The translations under genes and the position numbers were made by a program. The notes under the pieces were generated by a model. That model did no database searches and had not been told where the DNA came from. It worked only from the letters and a program-made list of their open reading frames with translations. DNA of 41,050 nt from a bacterium (GTDB lineage Bacteria > Patescibacteriota > Doudnabacteria > UBA920). How positions within the stretch are numbered: position 1 is the stretch's first letter; the number at the start of each line of letters is the position of its first letter. Of the stretch, positions 25,901 through 38,436 are shown in pieces. The stretch is from assembly GCA_021791515.1 (NCBI GenBank), contig JAJYWK010000008.1:1-41050 (forward strand). The letters are read 5' to 3'.

Positions 25901-27043
25901 TTGACCAGGAACAAAACAAAAACTTTTAAATATTTTAGCGCGTTCAGCGGCATCGGGGGTTTTGAAGTCGGGGTACAACAAGCCTATGGAACGATGGGAC
26001 AACTACAACAAAAGGTTCAGCAAACCGCTAGTTGCCGGAACGCTGAAAGCAAGCGGAGCAGATCCCAATGTATTGGTTTTTCGGAAATTGACAAGTATGC
26101 AATCCAAATCTACCGATCGCATTTCCCCACTCATAAAAATTATGGCGACATTACCAAAATTAAAGCCGAAGAACTGCCGGACTTTGAATTCTTCTGCGGC
26201 GGATTCCCGTGCCAGTCTTTTTCGATTGCTGGAAAACGTGCGGGATTTAACGATACCCGAGGTACGCTCTTTTTTGACCTCGCGCGGATTGCTAAAGAAA
26301 AAAGACCGAAATATCTTTTATTTGAAAATGTTAAAGGACTGTTATCTCACGACCGCGGACGAACTTTTAAAACCATACTGTCCGCCCTTACGGAACTTGG
26401 TTATAACCTCCAAGCGATGGTACTTAACAGCAAGAATTTCGGAGTCCCACAGAATCGGGAAAGAGTGTTCATTGTCGGAAATCTTGGAACGGCGGCCAGA
26501 CCGGAAGTATTTCCTTTCACCGGAAAAAACCAGGACGATAATGAAGCAGCTGCGGCTAACGCCATTGACGCCAACTATTTCAAAGGCGCAGACAACCACG
26601 GCCAGCGTACGCAAATTGCCCATACGCCGGCGCTCCGGGCTTCGGACGCAAAGCGCGGTGATAATCAAACGCTAGTGGTGGAAGACTTTTATCCCGGCAG
26701 AATCAGGACATTCAGCAAGGCGCCGACACTGCGAAGCGGCAGGGCGGGAATAAAAATCGGCACGCTAAGGAGCTATAAACACGGACGGGGTTTTCGCGAA
26801 ATCAAGCAGGGCATATCGCCAACGCTGCCCGCCCGCGCGCGGAATGACGGCACAGGCTCGCCCGTGCTTTACCACAAACTGGCCGTTCGCCGCCTGACGC
26901 CCGTAGAGTGCGAAAGGTTGCAGGGCTTCCCGGACGGCTGGACCGGAAACGTAAGCGATACCCAGCGCTACAAAACTTTGGGTAATGCAGTTACGGTTAA
27001 CGTCATAAGAGAAATTATTAAAAGGATAAAGCATTATGTTTAG
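25901..27043 (+). CDS. DNA (cytosine-5)-methyltransferase
   Basis: FSAFSGIGGFEVG, GGFPCQSFSIAGKR, FENVKGLL, PQNRERVFIVG, TLGNAVTVNVI. Confidence 0.92.
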   Translation: MTRNKTKTFKYFSAFSGIGGFEVGVQQAYGTMGQLQQKVQQTASCRNAESKRSRSQCIGFSEIDKYAIQIYRSHFPTHKNYGDITKIKAEELPDFEFFCGGFPCQSFSIAGKRAGFNDTRGTLFFDLARIAKEKRPKYLLFENVKGLLSHDRGRTFKTILSALTELGYNLQAMVLNSKNFGVPQNRERVFIVGNLGTAARPEVFPFTGKNQDDNEAAAANAIDANYFKGADNHGQRTQIAHTPALRASDAKRGDNQTLVVEDFYPGRIRTFSKAPTLRSGRAGIKIGTLRSYKHGRGFREIKQGISPTLPARARNDGTGSPVLYHKLAVRRLTPVECERLQGFPDGWTGNVSDTQRYKTLGNAVTVNVIREIIKRIKHYV

Positions 27044-28429: not shown

Positions 28430-31400
28430 ATGGGCAATTTTTGGAAAAAAATTACAGCGCCTTTCAAAAAGGCAGGCAATGCGGTTAAAAAAACCGTTGG
28501 CGACTTTTTTGCGCCTGTCGCCGGCCAAGTCCGCGTGCGAGACTTCGCCCGCGAAGTGCCGGGAGCGGCAGAAACTGTCGGCAAGAAAGTTTTAGAATTC
28601 GGCAAGGACATTCTCCGTGCGGGTCCTCGCGCTGCGGCATCGGCAACGCTTTCGGTACAAGGCCGTAAGGAAGCCGTGCCGGAAACTCCTATGGAAAAAT
28701 TCCTTTGGGGAGATAAACCAATCAAGGACATACGCGGCACAGGCGAGGAAACTATAAAAGATTTTGGGGGCGGACAGCAGGCTCAAAAAAAGTATGGCCT
28801 GCCATTGGGGGTTGCTTTGACGGCGCTCGATATTATTCCGGTAGTGCCGGAAGAAAAAGCCGGTAAGCAGGTGGTGGAAGAACTTGCTAAAAAATACGGA
28901 GACGACATTGCGCTGGCGATTGTAAAAAAAGGTGGGAAGAAACTGGCAGAACAGGCCTTAAAGGAAGGCGGTGAAAAGTTGGTAGAAAACGCCGGCATAA
29001 AACTTTTGAAATCCGAGCCTGTTATGGAAACTGCAGCCAAGGATATAAAAGATTTAGCGCCTGCCATTGCGGAAGAGGCAGGCAAAATGCAAATCACAGG
29101 TTTGGACCAAGCTGCGGAACAACTCGATAAAACCGGCTCGGCCATTATTGCTGAAGATAAATCCAAACGACTGCGGCTCGTGGTAAAAGATGAGGGTGAT
29201 TTTATCAAGGTCGGGATGGACTCGGGAACAGGTAAGCTGTTACCGACCGATGTTAAACTTCCCGAAAAAAACTTTAAGACAAAACAAGAAGCTTTCGATT
29301 TTATTAAATCGCTGGCCAACCCTGCACAGGATAAAGAGGCGGCTGATACTTTATACCACGGCACTTCAGCTCCGGACTTTAATAAATTCGGTACTAACCT
29401 GGTATACCTTGCCCAGAATGCGGACGAAGCCAAGGCGTTTGCCGAAAATCCGATAATGGGTGGCGGACGCGGATCAGGCATTGCAAGAATTTTGGATGTT
29501 AAAGCTCCGAAAGGAAAAATTAAGGACATCGATGAAGCAGTACAGGCAGCAATAAATGACGGAGAGGATCTTGATGCAGTGATTGCAAAGCAGGCGGCTG
29601 ACGCAAAAAAAGCCGGATATAATTATCTTTCGTTTAACCACCCCAGTGCCGTCGGCGACGGAGATTTTAAAGCAATCGTTTCCATTAATCCCGGCGAACT
29701 TTCAATAGCAAGAGTCGAAAAACTTCCCCCAAACCTCACAACTAAAGCGGAGGAAGCCCTAAATGCCGTTAATGAAAACCGCAATCTGGCGGCAGAGGCG
29801 GGAGATGAAACTGCTCCGGAAGCATTGAGGGCCGACCAAATGAAACCCTCTCCTCCAGGGCAGCCCCTTGCCCCTGCCGAAACCCCGCTGGCCAGCGCGC
29901 CGGCATCCACTCCGGCAAGCGCGCTTGATGCCATAGATAATATGGTCGGTAAAACCAGCACAACGCAAAGTATTAAAGACTGGTTTAAGGGACTGCCACA
30001 GAAATTTACCCAGGCATTCTCCGACCGTTTTGCCGGGATGAAAACTTTCGAGGATAACCTGAGCAAAATGGCGGGCAAGGCCATAGACATTGAATCCAGC
30101 CCGTACGTGGGAGCCAGAATGTATGCGGGCAGGACGGGAATTATAGAGTCAGGCCTTGAGGACTTGCAAAAAATACTCAGCCCGATCAGATCCGAAAGGC
30201 CGGATTTTACCAGATTTATCCTTGCCAAACGTGCGGCGGAACGCGCTGAGCGCGGCTTCAGCAATCCGGCCAGCGTAACCGGACAGGATGCGTTAAAGGC
30301 CCTGGAAGAATTGAAAAATAAGGTCGGCGAAAAAACTTATCAGCTGTTTGAAAAAGCCGAAAGCTCCATGCAGGACTGGGCTGACAGAACCATCCTGAAG
30401 CCGGCCGCGGACGCTGGCATCATTGCCAAAAACACTTACGACTCCATTTTAAACAAGAATAAACACTGGGTTCCGTTCCAGGTGCTGGATTATCTGCCTG
30501 ACCAAAAGCAGGCCGACATGATGAAAACCGGCAATGAAATATTTTCTGTCAGCAAACAGGGAATCATCAAAGGGCTGGAGAGCACCGAAAAAACCATCCG
30601 TGATCCGTTTGAAGCCCTTATAGACAAAGTCAGCAGCGCGGTCAGCCTGATTAAGCGGAACGAGGTGGCGGACAAATTGATAAAACTGCGTGACGCACTG
30701 CCGGAAGGCAAAGACCTTATCCAGCCGCTTGAAAAAACAGCGACCGCTCCCAAAGGCTGGGGTTCCATAAGCGTATTTATAGACGGCAAAAACACCAAAT
30801 GGGCGGTGCCGGAAGAACTGTCTATGGCCATGCACCAGATGAACAACGCCGATGCCGGTATACTGGGGAATTTTCTCAGGTTCACTTCATCCGCTTTCAG
30901 AAAAGGGGCAACCAACCTTTACATTCCATTTTCGCTTTCCAACGCTTTCCGCGACGCGCAGATGGCGGTCATGACTTCCAAGTATGGCTTTAACGCGGCT
31001 AACTGGGTAAAAGGATTTTACGAAGGACTAAAAGGATCGTTTGGCTGGAATTCCAAACTGCTGGATGAATTCAACAAGAGCGGCGGCGGATTCGGCGGCT
31101 TCCTGCAAAGCGCCCGCGACATTGGCGGGATAAAAAATAAATTGTTTGAGCCAAGCTGGTGGAGAAAGACGAAAGCGGTGATTAATCCATTTAATCTCGT
31201 AAGCAATTTTGCCGAAGCCACGGAACTCGCACCGAGGCTTGGCGTGTTTAACAAAGCCTTAAAAAAAGGTGCGTCTACTCTGGAGGCCGCGTACGAGGCC
31301 AGAAATTCTACCATAGATTTTGCCAAAGCCGGACAGGAAATGAGGATCATTAACATGTGGATTCCGTTCGTCAACGCGCGCTGGCAGGCTTTGTTGAATA

Positions 31401-32443
31401 CGGCCCGGGTATTTAAAGACCGGCCAATCCGTTCGGCCGCCAAGGCGAGCGCCCTTATAGTCATCCCCGGAGTAACCACGTATCTTTGGAACACTATTAA
31501 TTATCCCGACCTTTACGATGACATCCCCCAATGGATCAAGGATACCTATTTCCCGATTATTGTTGGCGAAGAAAAAGACAGCAACGGCAACAGAACCCCC
31601 AAAACAGTCATGATCCCCAAAGGCGACGTAGGCCAGATCTTTTACAACCCTCTTGAATATACGATGGAATACATCCGGCGCGGAGAGCCTTCAAACTTTA
31701 CCAGGCTTGCATTGGAATGGATGAGCCAGCTGGCTCCAATGCCATTTACGAGGGACGGCAAAATATCTACCACGCAAATACTTTCCAGCACGCTGCCTCC
31801 CCTGATTAAGACCCCCATAGAGATTGCCACAAATAAATCGTTCTTTACGGACAGTCCGATTGTACCCGGCAGTCTGGAAAACGTTAATCCTACGGAACAA
31901 TACAATGAGAAAACTCCCGGCATTGCTGTAACTGCCGGACGCGCGCTCGGCCTGTCGCCGATGAAACTGGCTTACGGAGTTGAAGGCCTATTGGGAGGAT
32001 TCGGGCGGGAAATTGTTGACCCTACAAAGATTTTGGAATCTTCAATGAATAGGTTCTACCGCTCAACCGGTGGCGCAAAGACTGAAGAAGCCTGGAATAT
32101 AAGGGACGAGGCCGTAACCGGCTACAACACCGCCCGGCAACAGGCCAAAAGAGCCATCCAGGCCAATGACGTAAACGCGGCTTTAAAAATTATTGACAGC
32201 TGGAACGTGGCGGTCGAAAAAATGCTTCCGGATGTCCTGCCGTACCTGGCGCAGGACGATCCAGAAGAGGCAAATAAAATTCGCAATTCGGTTACGTTCA
32301 GCCCCCAGGATATCTCCAAACTCCAAAAGTCCGTCTATAACGACGCAATGGGAAAATCACAGCGGCTTGGCACGAAACCCCAGCTAAACACAACCGATGA
32401 AAGCTCCAGTTTAAAAAAGATGCGGGAATCACTTAAGCGGTAA
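28430..32443 (+). CDS. polyvalent/ejection protein with ART-like and LPD38-like regions
   Basis: 1337 aa. TLYHGTSAPDFNKF...VYLAQNADEAKAFA...YNYLSFNHPSAVGDGDFKAIVSINPGEL (ART-like). FSLSNAFRDAQMAVMTSKYG...RIINMWIPFVNARWQALLNTARVFKDRP (LPD38-like). Confidence 0.75.
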   Translation: MGNFWKKITAPFKKAGNAVKKTVGDFFAPVAGQVRVRDFAREVPGAAETVGKKVLEFGKDILRAGPRAAASATLSVQGRKEAVPETPMEKFLWGDKPIKDIRGTGEETIKDFGGGQQAQKKYGLPLGVALTALDIIPVVPEEKAGKQVVEELAKKYGDDIALAIVKKGGKKLAEQALKEGGEKLVENAGIKLLKSEPVMETAAKDIKDLAPAIAEEAGKMQITGLDQAAEQLDKTGSAIIAEDKSKRLRLVVKDEGDFIKVGMDSGTGKLLPTDVKLPEKNFKTKQEAFDFIKSLANPAQDKEAADTLYHGTSAPDFNKFGTNLVYLAQNADEAKAFAENPIMGGGRGSGIARILDVKAPKGKIKDIDEAVQAAINDGEDLDAVIAKQAADAKKAGYNYLSFNHPSAVGDGDFKAIVSINPGELSIARVEKLPPNLTTKAEEALNAVNENRNLAAEAGDETAPEALRADQMKPSPPGQPLAPAETPLASAPASTPASALDAIDNMVGKTSTTQSIKDWFKGLPQKFTQAFSDRFAGMKTFEDNLSKMAGKAIDIESSPYVGARMYAGRTGIIESGLEDLQKILSPIRSERPDFTRFILAKRAAERAERGFSNPASVTGQDALKALEELKNKVGEKTYQLFEKAESSMQDWADRTILKPAADAGIIAKNTYDSILNKNKHWVPFQVLDYLPDQKQADMMKTGNEIFSVSKQGIIKGLESTEKTIRDPFEALIDKVSSAVSLIKRNEVADKLIKLRDALPEGKDLIQPLEKTATAPKGWGSISVFIDGKNTKWAVPEELSMAMHQMNNADAGILGNFLRFTSSAFRKGATNLYIPFSLSNAFRDAQMAVMTSKYGFNAANWVKGFYEGLKGSFGWNSKLLDEFNKSGGGFGGFLQSARDIGGIKNKLFEPSWWRKTKAVINPFNLVSNFAEATELAPRLGVFNKALKKGASTLEAAYEARNSTIDFAKAGQEMRIINMWIPFVNARWQALLNTARVFKDRPIRSAAKASALIVIPGVTTYLWNTINYPDLYDDIPQWIKDTYFPIIVGEEKDSNGNRTPKTVMIPKGDVGQIFYNPLEYTMEYIRRGEPSNFTRLALEWMSQLAPMPFTRDGKISTTQILSSTLPPLIKTPIEIATNKSFFTDSPIVPGSLENVNPTEQYNEKTPGIAVTAGRALGLSPMKLAYGVEGLLGGFGREIVDPTKILESSMNRFYRSTGGAKTEEAWNIRDEAVTGYNTARQQAKRAIQANDVNAALKIIDSWNVAVEKMLPDVLPYLAQDDPEEANKIRNSVTFSPQDISKLQKSVYNDAMGKSQRLGTKPQLNTTDESSSLKKMRESLKR

Positions 32444-32494: not shown

Positions 32495-32677
32495 ATGCCG
32501 AAAATTCCAAAGTATGAACAGGGTGGCAAACAGATTTATCAGCAGGCAAAAAAATGCCGTAATTATAAGGATTTTGAGAAATTTATTCATAGCGTTCGTA
32601 TGTTAACTTCAATTAAAATTAGTTGCAACTCCGACTTGTCCACTGACGCATTAGTAATCCATGTCAACGGATTTTAA
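32495..32677 (+). CDS. small hypothetical protein
   Basis: ORF 60 aa only. Confidence 0.35.
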   Translation: MPKIPKYEQGGKQIYQQAKKCRNYKDFEKFIHSVRMLTSIKISCNSDLSTDALVIHVNGF

Positions 32678-33968
32678 AAACAAAATACTTTTGGGTGATG
32701 CCAGAGATTTGTTAAAACAACTGCCGGACGAAAGCATAGACTGCTGCATTACTTCGCCACCTTACTGGGGACTTCGCGATTACGGAACCAAGCCGCTGGT
32801 ATGGGACGGCGATCCGTCCTGCCCGCATGAATGGCAAACCGGAAAACAAAAATGGCATTCAGACCGCGGGTCAAACAAAAGAAAAGAAATATTCGACAGA
32901 AGCTTCCAGACAAAAGGTACCTTATCTGACCGCTGTAAAAAATGCGGCGCCTGGCGCGGATCGCTTGGGCAGGAACCCAATATGGATCTGTTTATAAAGC
33001 ACCTGTGCGGCATTTTTGATGAAATAAAAAGGGTTTTAAAAAAGACGGGAACCTGTTGGGTCAATCTTGGCGACACTTACCAGGGCAGTCCGGTCAGCGG
33101 TAAAGAAGGCGGATTCTCCGGCCGGGCGGCAAGAAATAATCCCGATTATGCCAAAGCCATAATCGTAAAGAACAGGCCAAAAAGCGGACTGCCGGACAAG
33201 TGTCTGTGCCAGATCCCCTCAAAGTTCGCCCTTGAAATGGTCGCACGCGGCTGGATACTCCGGAACGAAATAATCTGGCGCAAGCCCAATGCCATGCCGT
33301 CCAGCGCCAGGGACAGGTTTACGGTGGACTTTGAAAAAATGTTCTTTTTCGTAAAATCCGGCCGGTATTATTTTGAACAACAGCTGGAAGATGCGAACAC
33401 CGGTGAAAATATTTACCGCCAGAAGCTTCGTTCCGGCAAAACCTACAACATAAAATATCCGGGCTACCAAAATAATTTTCCGATTCCGCGGCCAGACGGC
33501 AAAAGGAATATGCGATCAGTCTGGTCCATAACTACCAAGCCCTGCAAGGAAGCCCACTTCGCCGTGTTTCCCGAGAACTTGGCCAAGATACCCATACAGT
33601 CCGGGTGTCCGGAATTCATTTGCCGGTCTTGTGGCAGACCAAGAACTAAATTGTTTAAAAAAATAGAAATCGGTAAAGAATATAGTTGCACAAAATACAA
33701 CACTAAAAAATCAACGGCCGGCAGTCTCGCACAAAAACGCCAGGCATACCGGAAAATGGGTTTTGAAAATCCGCCTGCGCCGGAGTTTGTTGGCTACAGC
33801 GACTGCGGGTGCGGCGCGGAATTCAATCGCGGCATAGTTCTGGACCCGTTCATGGGAGCCGGTACGACCGCACTGGTCGCCAAAAAACTCGGCCGCGATT
33901 ACCTCGGAATGGAATTGAACCCGGCTTACGTTAAAATCGCCGAAAAGAGAATAAAAACTCATCATTAA
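32661..33968 (+). CDS. DNA methyltransferase (N4-cytosine or N6-adenine)
   Basis: CITSPPYWGLRDYG; DPFMGAGTTALVAKKLGRDYLGMELNPAYVKIAEKRI. Confidence 0.9.
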   Translation: MSTDFKNKILLGDARDLLKQLPDESIDCCITSPPYWGLRDYGTKPLVWDGDPSCPHEWQTGKQKWHSDRGSNKRKEIFDRSFQTKGTLSDRCKKCGAWRGSLGQEPNMDLFIKHLCGIFDEIKRVLKKTGTCWVNLGDTYQGSPVSGKEGGFSGRAARNNPDYAKAIIVKNRPKSGLPDKCLCQIPSKFALEMVARGWILRNEIIWRKPNAMPSSARDRFTVDFEKMFFFVKSGRYYFEQQLEDANTGENIYRQKLRSGKTYNIKYPGYQNNFPIPRPDGKRNMRSVWSITTKPCKEAHFAVFPENLAKIPIQSGCPEFICRSCGRPRTKLFKKIEIGKEYSCTKYNTKKSTAGSLAQKRQAYRKMGFENPPAPEFVGYSDCGCGAEFNRGIVLDPFMGAGTTALVAKKLGRDYLGMELNPAYVKIAEKRIKTHH

Positions 33969-34209: not shown

Positions 34210-34788
34210 ATGCCAAACTCTATTTGGAAAGGCTCGCCGAACTTCTGGGCCGGACGGGAGGGTCACAAACCGCAGGGAATCGTTATCCATATTATGGCCG
34301 GAACGCTGATCGGCACTGACAGCTGGTTTAACAACCCTAAATCACAAGTAAGCGCTCACTATGGTATTGGGAAAAACGGCGAAATTCACCAGTACGTAAA
34401 AGAAGAAGATTCGGCCTGGCAGGCAGGGACTGTTTCAAACCCCAGTACTCTGCTGGTTAAACCCGGCATTAATCCCAATCTGTATACCATTGGCATTGAA
34501 CACGAAGGGTCGGAAAGTGATGTCTGGACCGAAGAAATGAAAAACGCAAGCGCAGCCTTGATCAAAGACATTTGCATGCGTTGGAGTATTCCGATTGATC
34601 GCAACCACATAATCGGCCACTACCAGATCACCAGCAAAAAACCCAACTGTCCGGCAATAAACAAAAGCATCATAGACGAACTGGTAGCCAGGGCGGCTTT
34701 GCAGCAGGCACCCTCTCCTTCGCTGGTCGAGGAAGGAATAAAGAAAATTGAGGAAGGGCTTGCAATAATTAAGAACAACATTAAATAA
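34210..34788 (+). CDS. endolysin: N-acetylmuramoyl-L-alanine amidase
   Basis: GIVIHIMAGTLIGTDSWFNNPKSQVSAHYGIGKNGEIHQYVKEEDSAWQAG...IIGHYQITSKKPNCP. Confidence 0.88.
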   Translation: MPNSIWKGSPNFWAGREGHKPQGIVIHIMAGTLIGTDSWFNNPKSQVSAHYGIGKNGEIHQYVKEEDSAWQAGTVSNPSTLLVKPGINPNLYTIGIEHEGSESDVWTEEMKNASAALIKDICMRWSIPIDRNHIIGHYQITSKKPNCPAINKSIIDELVARAALQQAPSPSLVEEGIKKIEEGLAIIKNNIK

Positions 34789-35033: not shown

Positions 35034-36674
35034 ATGACTGACGTATTAACAGTCGCCCAACGATCATATAATATGTCTAAAATCCGGTCTACCGAAACCG
35101 GGCCGGAAATTCTGCTTCGGAACCTGCTTATTTCAAGAGGTCTGTCCGATTTTGAAACTCAACCGAAAACGATTTTTGGTAAACCGGATTTTTATTTCTA
35201 TAACCGGAAATCAGCTATTTTTGTTGACGGCTGTTTTTGGCACGGTTGCAAAACCTGCTTTCATGCACCGCAGACAAATAAAAAATTTTGGAGTTCAAAA
35301 ATAAAATCAAACATTATACGGGATAATAATGTTAATAAAACTTTGGCAAATGGCGGAATAGAAGTCATCAGGGTTAAGGAGCATGAACTGAAACAGAATC
35401 CGGATGATGTCGTAAAAAAAATTGAAGGCAAATTACCACCCGATAATCGTCCAAAAGTATTGGATCTGTTCGCCGGAGCGGGAGGACTTTCAGAGGGCTT
35501 TATTCAGGCTGGTTGCGAAATCGTCAGTCACATAGAAGCCGACAAAAAAGCCTGTAGCACTCTTGTAACGCGCATGGTATACCATGCGCTTAAAAAGAAA
35601 AATCGGCTTGACGATTATAAAAATTACGTTCTTGGCAAAACCACACGCGATGCGATTATTAAAAAGCACGGGCTTCAAAACGCGGAGAGTTCTGTAATAT
35701 ACGAAAAGATTGGCGAAAATAACTATCAGGATCTGATTACAAAGGTAAAAGAACGCCTGAACGGGGCAAGGCTCGACATTATCGTCGGCGGCCCTCCCTG
35801 CCAGGCCTACTCTCATATAGGCCGGGCCCGTGACGATCAGAACATGCGCCGGGATGAGCGTAACTTTCTTTACCGGTATTATGTTGAATTCCTTAAAGCC
35901 CTGCAACCAAAAGTATTTGTTTTTGAAAATGTACCCGGTCTTGAAGATGCTGGTAAAGGTAAGTACCTGCGGGATATGCGTGGCCTTATGAAGAAAGCGG
36001 GCTACACTACTGACTATAAAATTTTGAATGCCGTTAACTATGGCGTTCCCCAGAACAGAAAAAGAATTATTCTGGTAGGATGGAATAAAGATTCCGGCCT
36101 CAGTGGCTATCCTGATTTCCCGGAAGTCAAACGCGAATATCTTGTTAAAGATTTTTTTACCGGATTGCCAAATATTAAAGCGGGTAAGGACAGGCCAGCC
36201 GGAGTATTTTCCGTGCAAAATGACCTTTTGGAAAAACTTGGTATTACTAATCCGCAGGTTGGTATCCTTATGGATCATGTTTCCCGGCCTCATATAAAAA
36301 GAGATTTGGCAATTTACAGACGTGCCGTGTTGTTAAAGCAGCAAGGAAAAAATTTGAAATACAATAACCTTCCAAAATATTTAAAAACACACACCAATGA
36401 GGAAGGGTTTTTGGACAGATTTAAAGTGGTTGATGCCGATGCCCGGGGTTCTCATACTGTTGTTGCACACATAGCAAAAGACGGTCATTATTATATTCAT
36501 CCGGACATCAGGCAAAACCGGTCTTTGACTGTCAGGGAGGCTGCTAGGCTGCAAACATTCCCCGATGACTATAAATTTGAAGGGGAAATAGGCCCCCGGT
36601 TTAAACAGATCGGCAACGCCGTGCCGCCATTATTCGCAAAAATAATTGCTTCAACAATACTCCAGTATTTTTAA
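35034..36674 (+). CDS. Vsr endonuclease - C5 cytosine methyltransferase fusion
   Basis: N-terminal Vsr: MSKIRSTETGPEILLR, GKPDFYF, VDGCFWHGC. C-terminal Dcm: DLFAGAGGLSEGF, GGPPCQAYSHIGR, FENVPGL, PQNRKRIILVG, IGNAVPPLFA. Confidence 0.93.
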   Translation: MTDVLTVAQRSYNMSKIRSTETGPEILLRNLLISRGLSDFETQPKTIFGKPDFYFYNRKSAIFVDGCFWHGCKTCFHAPQTNKKFWSSKIKSNIIRDNNVNKTLANGGIEVIRVKEHELKQNPDDVVKKIEGKLPPDNRPKVLDLFAGAGGLSEGFIQAGCEIVSHIEADKKACSTLVTRMVYHALKKKNRLDDYKNYVLGKTTRDAIIKKHGLQNAESSVIYEKIGENNYQDLITKVKERLNGARLDIIVGGPPCQAYSHIGRARDDQNMRRDERNFLYRYYVEFLKALQPKVFVFENVPGLEDAGKGKYLRDMRGLMKKAGYTTDYKILNAVNYGVPQNRKRIILVGWNKDSGLSGYPDFPEVKREYLVKDFFTGLPNIKAGKDRPAGVFSVQNDLLEKLGITNPQVGILMDHVSRPHIKRDLAIYRRAVLLKQQGKNLKYNNLPKYLKTHTNEEGFLDRFKVVDADARGSHTVVAHIAKDGHYYIHPDIRQNRSLTVREAARLQTFPDDYKFEGEIGPRFKQIGNAVPPLFAKIIASTILQYF

Positions 36675-36681
36675 TAACCAT

Positions 36682-38436
36682 ATGCGCAATCCTCAGGATC
36701 AAAAAAATTTACAGGAAACCAGCATAGAGCCGCTACGTTTTGACGTCAGCGGTAACTTAATCAGAAAATTTGGCCGCGAGTCTATCTCCAATAAAAATGT
36801 AGCCATACTGGAGCTTATCAAAAATTCTTACGATGCTGGAGCGGCAAAGATGGAGATAGATTTTTCTTCTGTCAACACAAAAGACGCTTTAATTTCTGTA
36901 TCTGACAATGGGGACGGAATGGATTATCAGGATCTGAAAAATAAATGGATGCGCATTGCAAGTCAGTTTAAATCGAAAAAACTTAAAAATGGCGACAGAA
37001 CTTTTATCGGGGAAAAAGGCATTGGGAGGCTCTCGGCCGAAAGTCTGGGTAAAATAGCAACTCTATTTTCTTTCCCGAAAGGAAAGGATACGGGATATAA
37101 GGTCATTTTTGACTGGAATAAATACCAGGATGAGAACGTGCTGGTCAATGATGTTGATAATCCAACTTCACAAATAAAAAAGAAAAAATCCGATCACGGA
37201 TTAAGGCTGGAAATTAAAGACCTTAATCATGACTGGAATATGCAGGAAGCTCAAATCGAACTTCTGGCGGATGTTGGTATTCTTAATCCACCCAATAAAC
37301 CAGTCAGGGATTTTAAAGTATCGGCTAAATTCACGCCTTCTCTGATGGCCGCCCCGAAAATAAAAAAGGAGTTTCTAGGAAAGGCCGTATACAGCCTTAA
37401 AACCAGACTTACTGGAGGCAGTCTGATACGTTATGAATTTTCTTCAATTAAAGGAAAAAAGAAAGAAGGGAACCGTACAACAGATCGTAAACTTAAATGC
37501 GGGGATGCGGTTTTTGAACTTTATTTCTATTATAAGTCCCCAAAGTATTTTGAGCAGGCTGTCGGGAAAAAAATCAGTGCGATTGATTCAAAAGAAATTT
37601 CAAAAACGCTTGAACATTTTAGCGGCATCAAACTCTACAGAGATAATTTTAGGGTCAAACCGTATGGCGACCCCAAAAGTGACTGGATCGGCTTGGACAT
37701 TGCGGCCCACAATAACAGTATGTATCCGAGAAATGACGCTATTTTTGGAATGGTTCACATAAGCAAGTCAAAAAATCCGGCGATTGTTGATACCACCACA
37801 AGGGAAGGAGTTATATTCACTGACGAATTTCAGGACCTGATTGCATTTGTCCAGACTTCTATTTTTGGAATATTTGCGGACTTGCGGAGCGAATTTGAGT
37901 CGCATAAAACCAAAGCCAGAAAAAAGAAAAACGGTGCAAAAAACAAGACCCCGATTCACGTGGTAGTTCCAGTGCCTACAGCAAGCCCCCAGCCTCCCGA
38001 CACACTGGTTGAAATTGGCGGTAAGTATCCAGAAAACTTTTATAATCAGCTTCAGGATGAAATAAATATTTGTTTTGAACACAACCATCCAAACGCGGCT
38101 TTTTTCCTCTGTCGGAAGATGATAGAAAACCTTGTGTTTAATATTCTTGAAAAGAAATTTTCCACCCATGTGGATCTGTGGTATGACCAAAAAAGAAAAA
38201 TACGCCACAAGTTTAGTGTTTTAATCCAGAATCTCTATGCGGAGAGGACTAATTTTGGTAAGCCAAACATTAAAACCTATATAGAAAAGTTTAACAATGA
38301 GGTCGGACCGTTCAGGAAAGAGGCTAACACCAAGGCCCATTATGTATTTGAATATCTGGCCGACAAAAAAGAACTTGGCAAATTTAAAATCAAGGACTTG
38401 GTGCAGCTACTGGCAAAAATTTATGACAACATTTAA
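36682..38436 (+). CDS. GHKL (Hsp90/MutL/MORC-like) ATPase with C-terminal DUF4145/HEPN-like region
   Basis: Bergerat motifs ELIKNSYDA, SDNGDGMD, GEKGIGRLS. C-terminus NAAFFLCRKMIENLVFNIL...RKEANTKAH. Confidence 0.88.
   Translation: MRNPQDQKNLQETSIEPLRFDVSGNLIRKFGRESISNKNVAILELIKNSYDAGAAKMEIDFSSVNTKDALISVSDNGDGMDYQDLKNKWMRIASQFKSKKLKNGDRTFIGEKGIGRLSAESLGKIATLFSFPKGKDTGYKVIFDWNKYQDENVLVNDVDNPTSQIKKKKSDHGLRLEIKDLNHDWNMQEAQIELLADVGILNPPNKPVRDFKVSAKFTPSLMAAPKIKKEFLGKAVYSLKTRLTGGSLIRYEFSSIKGKKKEGNRTTDRKLKCGDAVFELYFYYKSPKYFEQAVGKKISAIDSKEISKTLEHFSGIKLYRDNFRVKPYGDPKSDWIGLDIAAHNNSMYPRNDAIFGMVHISKSKNPAIVDTTTREGVIFTDEFQDLIAFVQTSIFGIFADLRSEFESHKTKARKKKNGAKNKTPIHVVVPVPTASPQPPDTLVEIGGKYPENFYNQLQDEINICFEHNHPNAAFFLCRKMIENLVFNILEKKFSTHVDLWYDQKRKIRHKFSVLIQNLYAERTNFGKPNIKTYIEKFNNEVGPFRKEANTKAHYVFEYLADKKELGKFKIKDLVQLLAKIYDNI

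Follow-up and report, generated by a model that had tools for sequence, protein, structure and literature searches.

The window, i.e., the whole stretch of 41,050 bases that was analyzed, is an entire contig of a 1.17-Mb genome that is 98% complete. Its terminase, portal, major head, tail and amidase genes are followed by a two-gene cassette, a convergent gene and a bactofilin-like gene, the last of these named from the sequence without a profile match. GC content drops from ~0.49 in the phage genes to ~0.41 at the cassette, a step that an earlier note on this DNA had not recorded. The prophage further contains three other DNA methylase genes (866–2140, 25901–27043 and 32661–33968), comprising a ParB-like fused amino-methylase, a C5-methylase and an N6/N4-methylase, which makes four methylases in one phage. 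Features of the cassette and of the neighboring endolysin are collected in Table 1.

Table 1. Cassette features and the adjoining prophage end, in window positions
Feature	Position	Strand	Evidence
Phage endolysin (amidase), prophage side of the cargo slot	34210..34788	+	Amidase_2 7e-28
Vsr mismatch endonuclease domain, aa 1-133 of the fusion	35034..35432	+	PF03852, TIGR00632, 1cw0 alignment
C5-cytosine DNA methyltransferase domain, aa 138-546, motifs complete	35445..36671	+	PF00145, PADLOC DrmMII
GHKL ATPase gene, 584 aa, second cassette gene	36682..38436	+	HATPase_c_3 6.9e-22; HEF_HK/paraMORC homology aa 18-413
GHKL (Bergerat) ATP-binding domain, aa 18-165	36733..37176	+	ATP-site residues; AF2 model, pLDDT mostly 79-96
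S5-type transducer domain, aa 205-415, motif YRDxFRVxPYGxPxxDW	37294..37926	+	Conservation in relatives; PDB fold match
All-helical domain, probably HEPN-like, aa 449-584, motif R-x2-A-N-x2-A-H	38026..38433	+	DUF5677, haloarchaeal homologues, helix prediction

The first cassette gene is a single uninterrupted ORF (35034–36674, ATG start, 546 aa) in which an N-terminal Vsr domain is followed by a complete C5-cytosine methylase. The Vsr part matches Pfam PF03852 over aa 2–72 (7.5e-25) and TIGR00632 over aa 1–118, with 112.7 bits above a cutoff of 97.85. In an alignment with E. coli Vsr (PDB 1cw0), the acidic and histidine positions E25, D52, H70 and D97, which we take to be the Vsr active-site residues, are kept together with the zinc-site region; D52 and H70 correspond to D51 and H69 of the E. 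coli enzyme. In the methylase, Pfam PF00145 covers aa 222–543 (7.3e-62), and the nearest PADLOC profile is DrmMII (8.7e-158). Despite this match, DISARM was rejected, as no helicase, DrmABC or other DISARM gene lies nearby. The closest homologue is another Vsr–methylase fusion from Peregrinibacteria Greene0416_19 (G301, contig VMEW01000005.1) of the same phylum, with 56% identity in Vsr and 66% in the methylase and with the motifs GGPPCQ, ENVPG, PQxRKR and QIGNAVPP identical in both. There, too, a GHKL gene begins 8 nt after the fusion gene. Because a second genome of the phylum thus has the same fusion with an adjacent GHKL gene, a chance fusion is excluded. With a Peregrinibacteria genome among its members, this phylum is the Patescibacteria. 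Apart from the window and Greene0416_19 fusions, no one-ORF fusion was found in a survey that covered 380 of the phylum's genomes, 85 viral loci and the 80 best loci of the genome collection, and vsr and dcm as separate genes beside GHKL genes were common in the surveyed loci. Very short patch repair by Vsr and Dcm likewise relies on two genes; the window cassette has both enzymes, present and intact, in one polypeptide. As a side observation, a Vsr domain at locus L035 (G026:C5:280907-281266) lies within a 307-aa open frame and could be another kind of Vsr fusion.

The second ORF is intact as well, its ATG at 36682 lying 7 nt past the fusion stop at 36674. The earlier note had described both a one-ORF fusion of Vsr and C5-methylase and, just after its stop, a GHKL ATPase whose Bergerat motifs are all present; these observations hold, its coordinates and motif calls being correct. 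Across 40 relatives, the residues E44, N48, D75, G77, G79, K112, G113, G115 and R116 do not vary, and the window ATPase has all of them. AlphaFold reached a pLDDT of 32 from the single sequence versus 77 with a 40-row alignment; in the ATPase part of the AF2 model, pLDDT is mostly 79–97, and its best PDB fold match is the human MORC3 ATPase (E 1.1e-12). Residues 18–413 align with proteins of 690–780 aa that adjoin DNA methylases on plasmids and phages. These relatives carry a second, histidine-kinase HATPase_c domain at the C-terminus, and a receiver-domain gene comes next, which is the layout of the HEF_HK/Response_reg_2 system that was described in 2021 (Bellieny-Rabelo et al., PMC8011034) and tied to the paraMORCs of 2008 (PMC2292703). 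Both publications place paraMORC-type GHKL ATPases beside C5-methylases and Vsr, and the HEF_HK paraMORC family also beside type II restriction–modification (R-M) systems. In a maximum-likelihood GHKL tree, the window ATPase groups with 32 HEF_HK proteins (support 94/83), albeit on a long branch of its own, and the MzaB clade (100/100) and BbrUII-type proteins are separate from this group. With the HEF_HK system the cassette thus shares a homologous GHKL-S5 ATPase (21–28% identity, same clade, motif YRDxFRVxPYG) and the position beside a C5-methylase, often with Vsr and frequently on phages, the link in the window being the fusion ORF upstream. In contrast to this system, its Vsr is fused to the methylase and the kinase and receiver have been lost. 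Only the N-terminal ATPase domain is present in the window protein, with no histidine kinase (H-box and HATPase_c) at its C-terminus, and no receiver gene lies beside it, the next gene being convergent and weakly nucleotidyltransferase-like.

How regularly the relatives keep these parts can be seen on phages. A profile scan of IMG/VR yielded relatives on 80 phage contigs (L157–L236). Of these, 75 keep the kinase, the other five being cut by contig ends or frameshifts, and in 72 a same-strand gene directly follows the ATPase. IMG/VR scans with each single window protein found no relatives. Receiver partners can carry an effector-like end: at the loci L137 (10526–11380) and L089 (5697–6611) they end in the canonical HEPN motifs RNAVAH and RNTVAH, respectively, and the L089 receiver matches Pfam HEPN_RiboL-PSP (1.7e-5). 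For these two loci, this suggests that a phosphorelay leads to an RNase effector encoded next to C5-methylase and Vsr genes.

Where these relatives have kinase and receiver, the window ATPase instead ends in a helical, toxin-like domain that is probably HEPN-like. About 135 residues are predicted as helix, with six helices in a low-confidence AF2 model (pLDDT ~35–63). Pfam DUF5677 matches with 26.4 bits, slightly below its cutoff of 27.1. The only detectable relatives of the domain are two haloarchaeal proteins of 28–29% identity that share the pattern R-x2-A-N-x2-A-H, one of them with weak AbiJ_NTD5 and DUF4145-like matches in addition. A PDB profile search with the C-terminal alignment returned nothing meaningful, an IMG/VR scan with it found no relatives, and comparison with the receiver HEPNs by hhalign gave no support. 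With moderate confidence at most, we consider the domain HEPN-like. Seven residues lie between R and H (R-x7-H), more than in the canonical Rx4-6H, and the domain may hence be non-catalytic. Anantharaman et al. (2013, PMC3710099) described R-M loci in which a paraMORC ATPase is fused to a HEPN (Ymh) domain, and compared these fusions with PrrC/RloC. The window protein resembles them in its R-M setting and in that a paraMORC-type GHKL ATPase is joined to a C-terminal domain that is probably HEPN-like; however, its tail has no match to Ymh (PF09509) at E values up to 1 and is nearer to DUF5677/DUF4145, with the spacing R-x2-A-N-x2-A-H. The combination of GHKL-S5 and such a tail was found in one copy only, that of the window.

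The two genes of the cassette seem to have different histories. The methylase tree intermixes enzymes whose GHKL partners are of the HEF_HK, MZA and BbrUII types, whereas the GHKL tree keeps HEF_HK and MZA types apart; from this it follows that methylases have been exchanged between GHKL systems. Judged by these trees, the window pairs an MZA-related methylase with an HEF_HK-related ATPase. The only other fusion, in Greene0416_19, also directly precedes its GHKL gene, but sits in an operon like that of MZA (MzaB/MzaC/MzaD), with a GHKL protein of MzaB type (1e-58) followed by Z1 helicase and DUF4420 genes, which the window lacks and the loci L058 and L069 have. Against the NCBIfam MzaB model (cutoff 850) the window ATPase scores 21.3 bits and the Greene0416_19 protein 243.9. 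MZA membership was thus rejected, as the tree puts the window ATPase in another clade and the Z1 and DUF4420 genes are missing. Since the only other fusion belongs to an MZA-like operon whose GHKL protein is of another class, the cassette looks recombined, and partner exchange is favored over plain gene loss. At L069 (7001–13725), from a Woesearchaeota archaeon, we noted a further MZA-like operon of Vsr, methylase, GHKL, Z1 and DUF4420 genes in which Vsr and C5-methylase are separate. The earlier note had read the locus as a stand-alone two-gene system and had considered that it might be the rest of a fuller one. Both genes do stand alone, but the kinase and receiver of the relatives, and the HEPN-like domain in their stead, had been overlooked; and the possibility of a fuller system is borne out by half, the only close relative of the fusion lying in an MZA-like operon, but one whose GHKL class differs. 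We therefore regard the cassette as a variant, reduced and recombined, of the known methylation-associated systems that are linked to paraMORCs. The parts are already known, the unusual features being the one-chain Vsr–methylase and the putative HEPN-like tail in place of kinase and receiver.

That the cassette is prophage cargo is seen from a sister genome, G170. Its prophage has 80% DNA identity to the window in the endolysin region, and there the same amidase region and a bactofilin (65% protein identity) stand on either side of other cargo, namely a RelA/SpoT-domain gene and a weakly NA37-like gene (L249:1594-3263, G170:C61). As the shared prophage end thus carries different cargo, the cassette occupies a variable cargo slot, and the RelA/SpoT gene supports the view that the content of this slot can be swapped. 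A search of the window for an attachment repeat came up empty, and the exact attachment site was not located. No sequenced empty site can be shown; the right-hand bactofilin is a second paralogue, the conserved one lying on contig C70. The earlier claim of a defense-type cassette, related to R-M and carried by a prophage beside lysis genes, is supported. We also observed that the RelA/SpoT and NA37-like genes of G170 are possibly a CapRel/toxSAS-like defense pair, and that a 1337-aa phage protein of the window (28430–32443), of the large polyvalent type, has a counterpart in L249 (1440 aa) that matches LPD38.

As the best explanation, to which we give a probability of roughly one half, the cassette would be methylation-guarded prophage defense cargo of the paraMORC/R-M kind, in which the GHKL clamp drives the fused HEPN-like effector. 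The methylase domain would label resident DNA as self at a cytosine motif, and the fused Vsr domain would repair the T:G mismatches left by deamination of that 5mC. The GHKL-S5 protein, predicted to be a dimeric clamp that is gated by ATP and resembles MORC and MutL in its build, would respond to unmarked DNA, be it an incoming phage genome or that of a cell losing the methylase. Once switched, the clamp may activate its own C-terminal HEPN-like domain, and RNA would be cut or blocked and the infection stopped. This last step would follow the example of PrrC and RloC, which act in this way for classical R-M systems, and the identity of the effector is the weakest step of the explanation. In the relatives, the fused histidine kinase would instead signal to a separate receiver-effector, apparently itself a HEPN protein in two cases.

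Unlikely, in our view, is that the cassette is a degraded or transitional remnant, in which methylase and Vsr shield the prophage DNA from host restriction and the ATPase is decaying or a neutral passenger. The missing kinase and receiver would fit such a history, as would the three other methylases encoded by the phage, and the kinship of the methylase to that of an MZA operon suggests a patched-together locus. Yet both ORFs are intact and closely coupled with all catalytic residues kept, and the C-terminal motif is common to the haloarchaeal proteins, whereas decay would be expected to erode such a motif.

Neither do we favor Vsr as the restricting nuclease, licensed by the GHKL protein much as MutL stimulates Vsr in mismatch repair, so that the fusion would nick unmodified foreign DNA after ATP-dependent loading; we consider this unlikely. 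Vsr is, with its site intact, the only recognizable nuclease in the two genes. However, Vsr requires a T:G mismatch, and a nuclease fused to the self-marking enzyme would be an odd restriction layout. In vitro, MutL does bind Vsr and stimulate it, an effect that ATP enhances (PMC6116569), and Iyer et al. listed Vsr-type nucleases in MORC/paraMORC R-M operons (PMC2292703). The viral loci nevertheless speak against this role, as Vsr occurs in 12 of 35 GHKL loci with a detectable C5-methylase versus 0 of 45 without one (p=1.4e-5, near-duplicate contigs included), i.e., it is missing from 23 of the former and from all of the latter. Being absent from most of the 80 loci, Vsr is not needed by the GHKL system. 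It tracks the C5-methylase and not the GHKL protein, and hence most likely is a repair accessory to 5mC rather than an effector. No support accordingly emerged for the earlier proposal of a modification, nick and clamp system with Vsr as its working nuclease; overall, what the earlier note had observed was confirmed and its interpretation partly supported. In Caulobacter, a Vsr-like protein can damage cells without matching methylation (PMC12907096), and if this case applies, the fusion of Vsr and methylase would keep both activities together.

Very unlikely is a genuine type II restriction enzyme of BbrUII/HgiDII type with an unrecognized DNA nuclease as C-terminal domain and the methylase as partner: the related GHKL N-terminus matches the BbrUII/HgiDII model (3.5e-19), and relatives in the same methylase clade pair with such enzymes, among them an Acinetobacter methylase (48.5%) with a full-length BbrUII-type protein, but membership was rejected, as the match is partial (68.8 bits versus a cutoff of 550, aa 19–190 only) and ends with the ATP-binding domain, the remainder differs, other HEF_HK proteins show the same partial match, the tree puts the ATPase with HEF_HK, and the C-terminus is predicted all helical and matched no restriction-nuclease family.

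Starting from methylation-guarded defense as the preferred reading, we may speculate further, as a tentative and rather doubtful proposal, that the cassette is a two-protein immune system free of a restriction enzyme, in which a self-repairing methylase writes the mark and a MORC-type clamp with a HEPN-like RNase reads its absence. If true, a relay of four or five genes, i.e., methylase, kinase, receiver and effector, would have collapsed into two polypeptides, reached in ultra-small bacteria by a methylase swap between MZA-like and HEF_HK-like systems. Since 2008, R-M loci have been predicted to include paraMORC ATPases, with no mechanism established in the literature cited here. A two-gene form with an effector-fused ATPase would offer the simplest setting in which to study what is sensed by the MORC-type clamps of prokaryotes, and whether DNA methylation is tied through them to abortive infection that targets RNA. 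The survey in turn suggests that phages commonly carry the kinase–receiver version and that it is sometimes HEPN-ended, which links three groups of systems that are usually filed apart. With at least 80 viral contigs, usually in the order methylase, GHKL-HK and receiver, the HEF_HK kinase–receiver paraMORC system is widespread on phages; a text search of its 2021 description (PMC8011034) showed no mention of phages.
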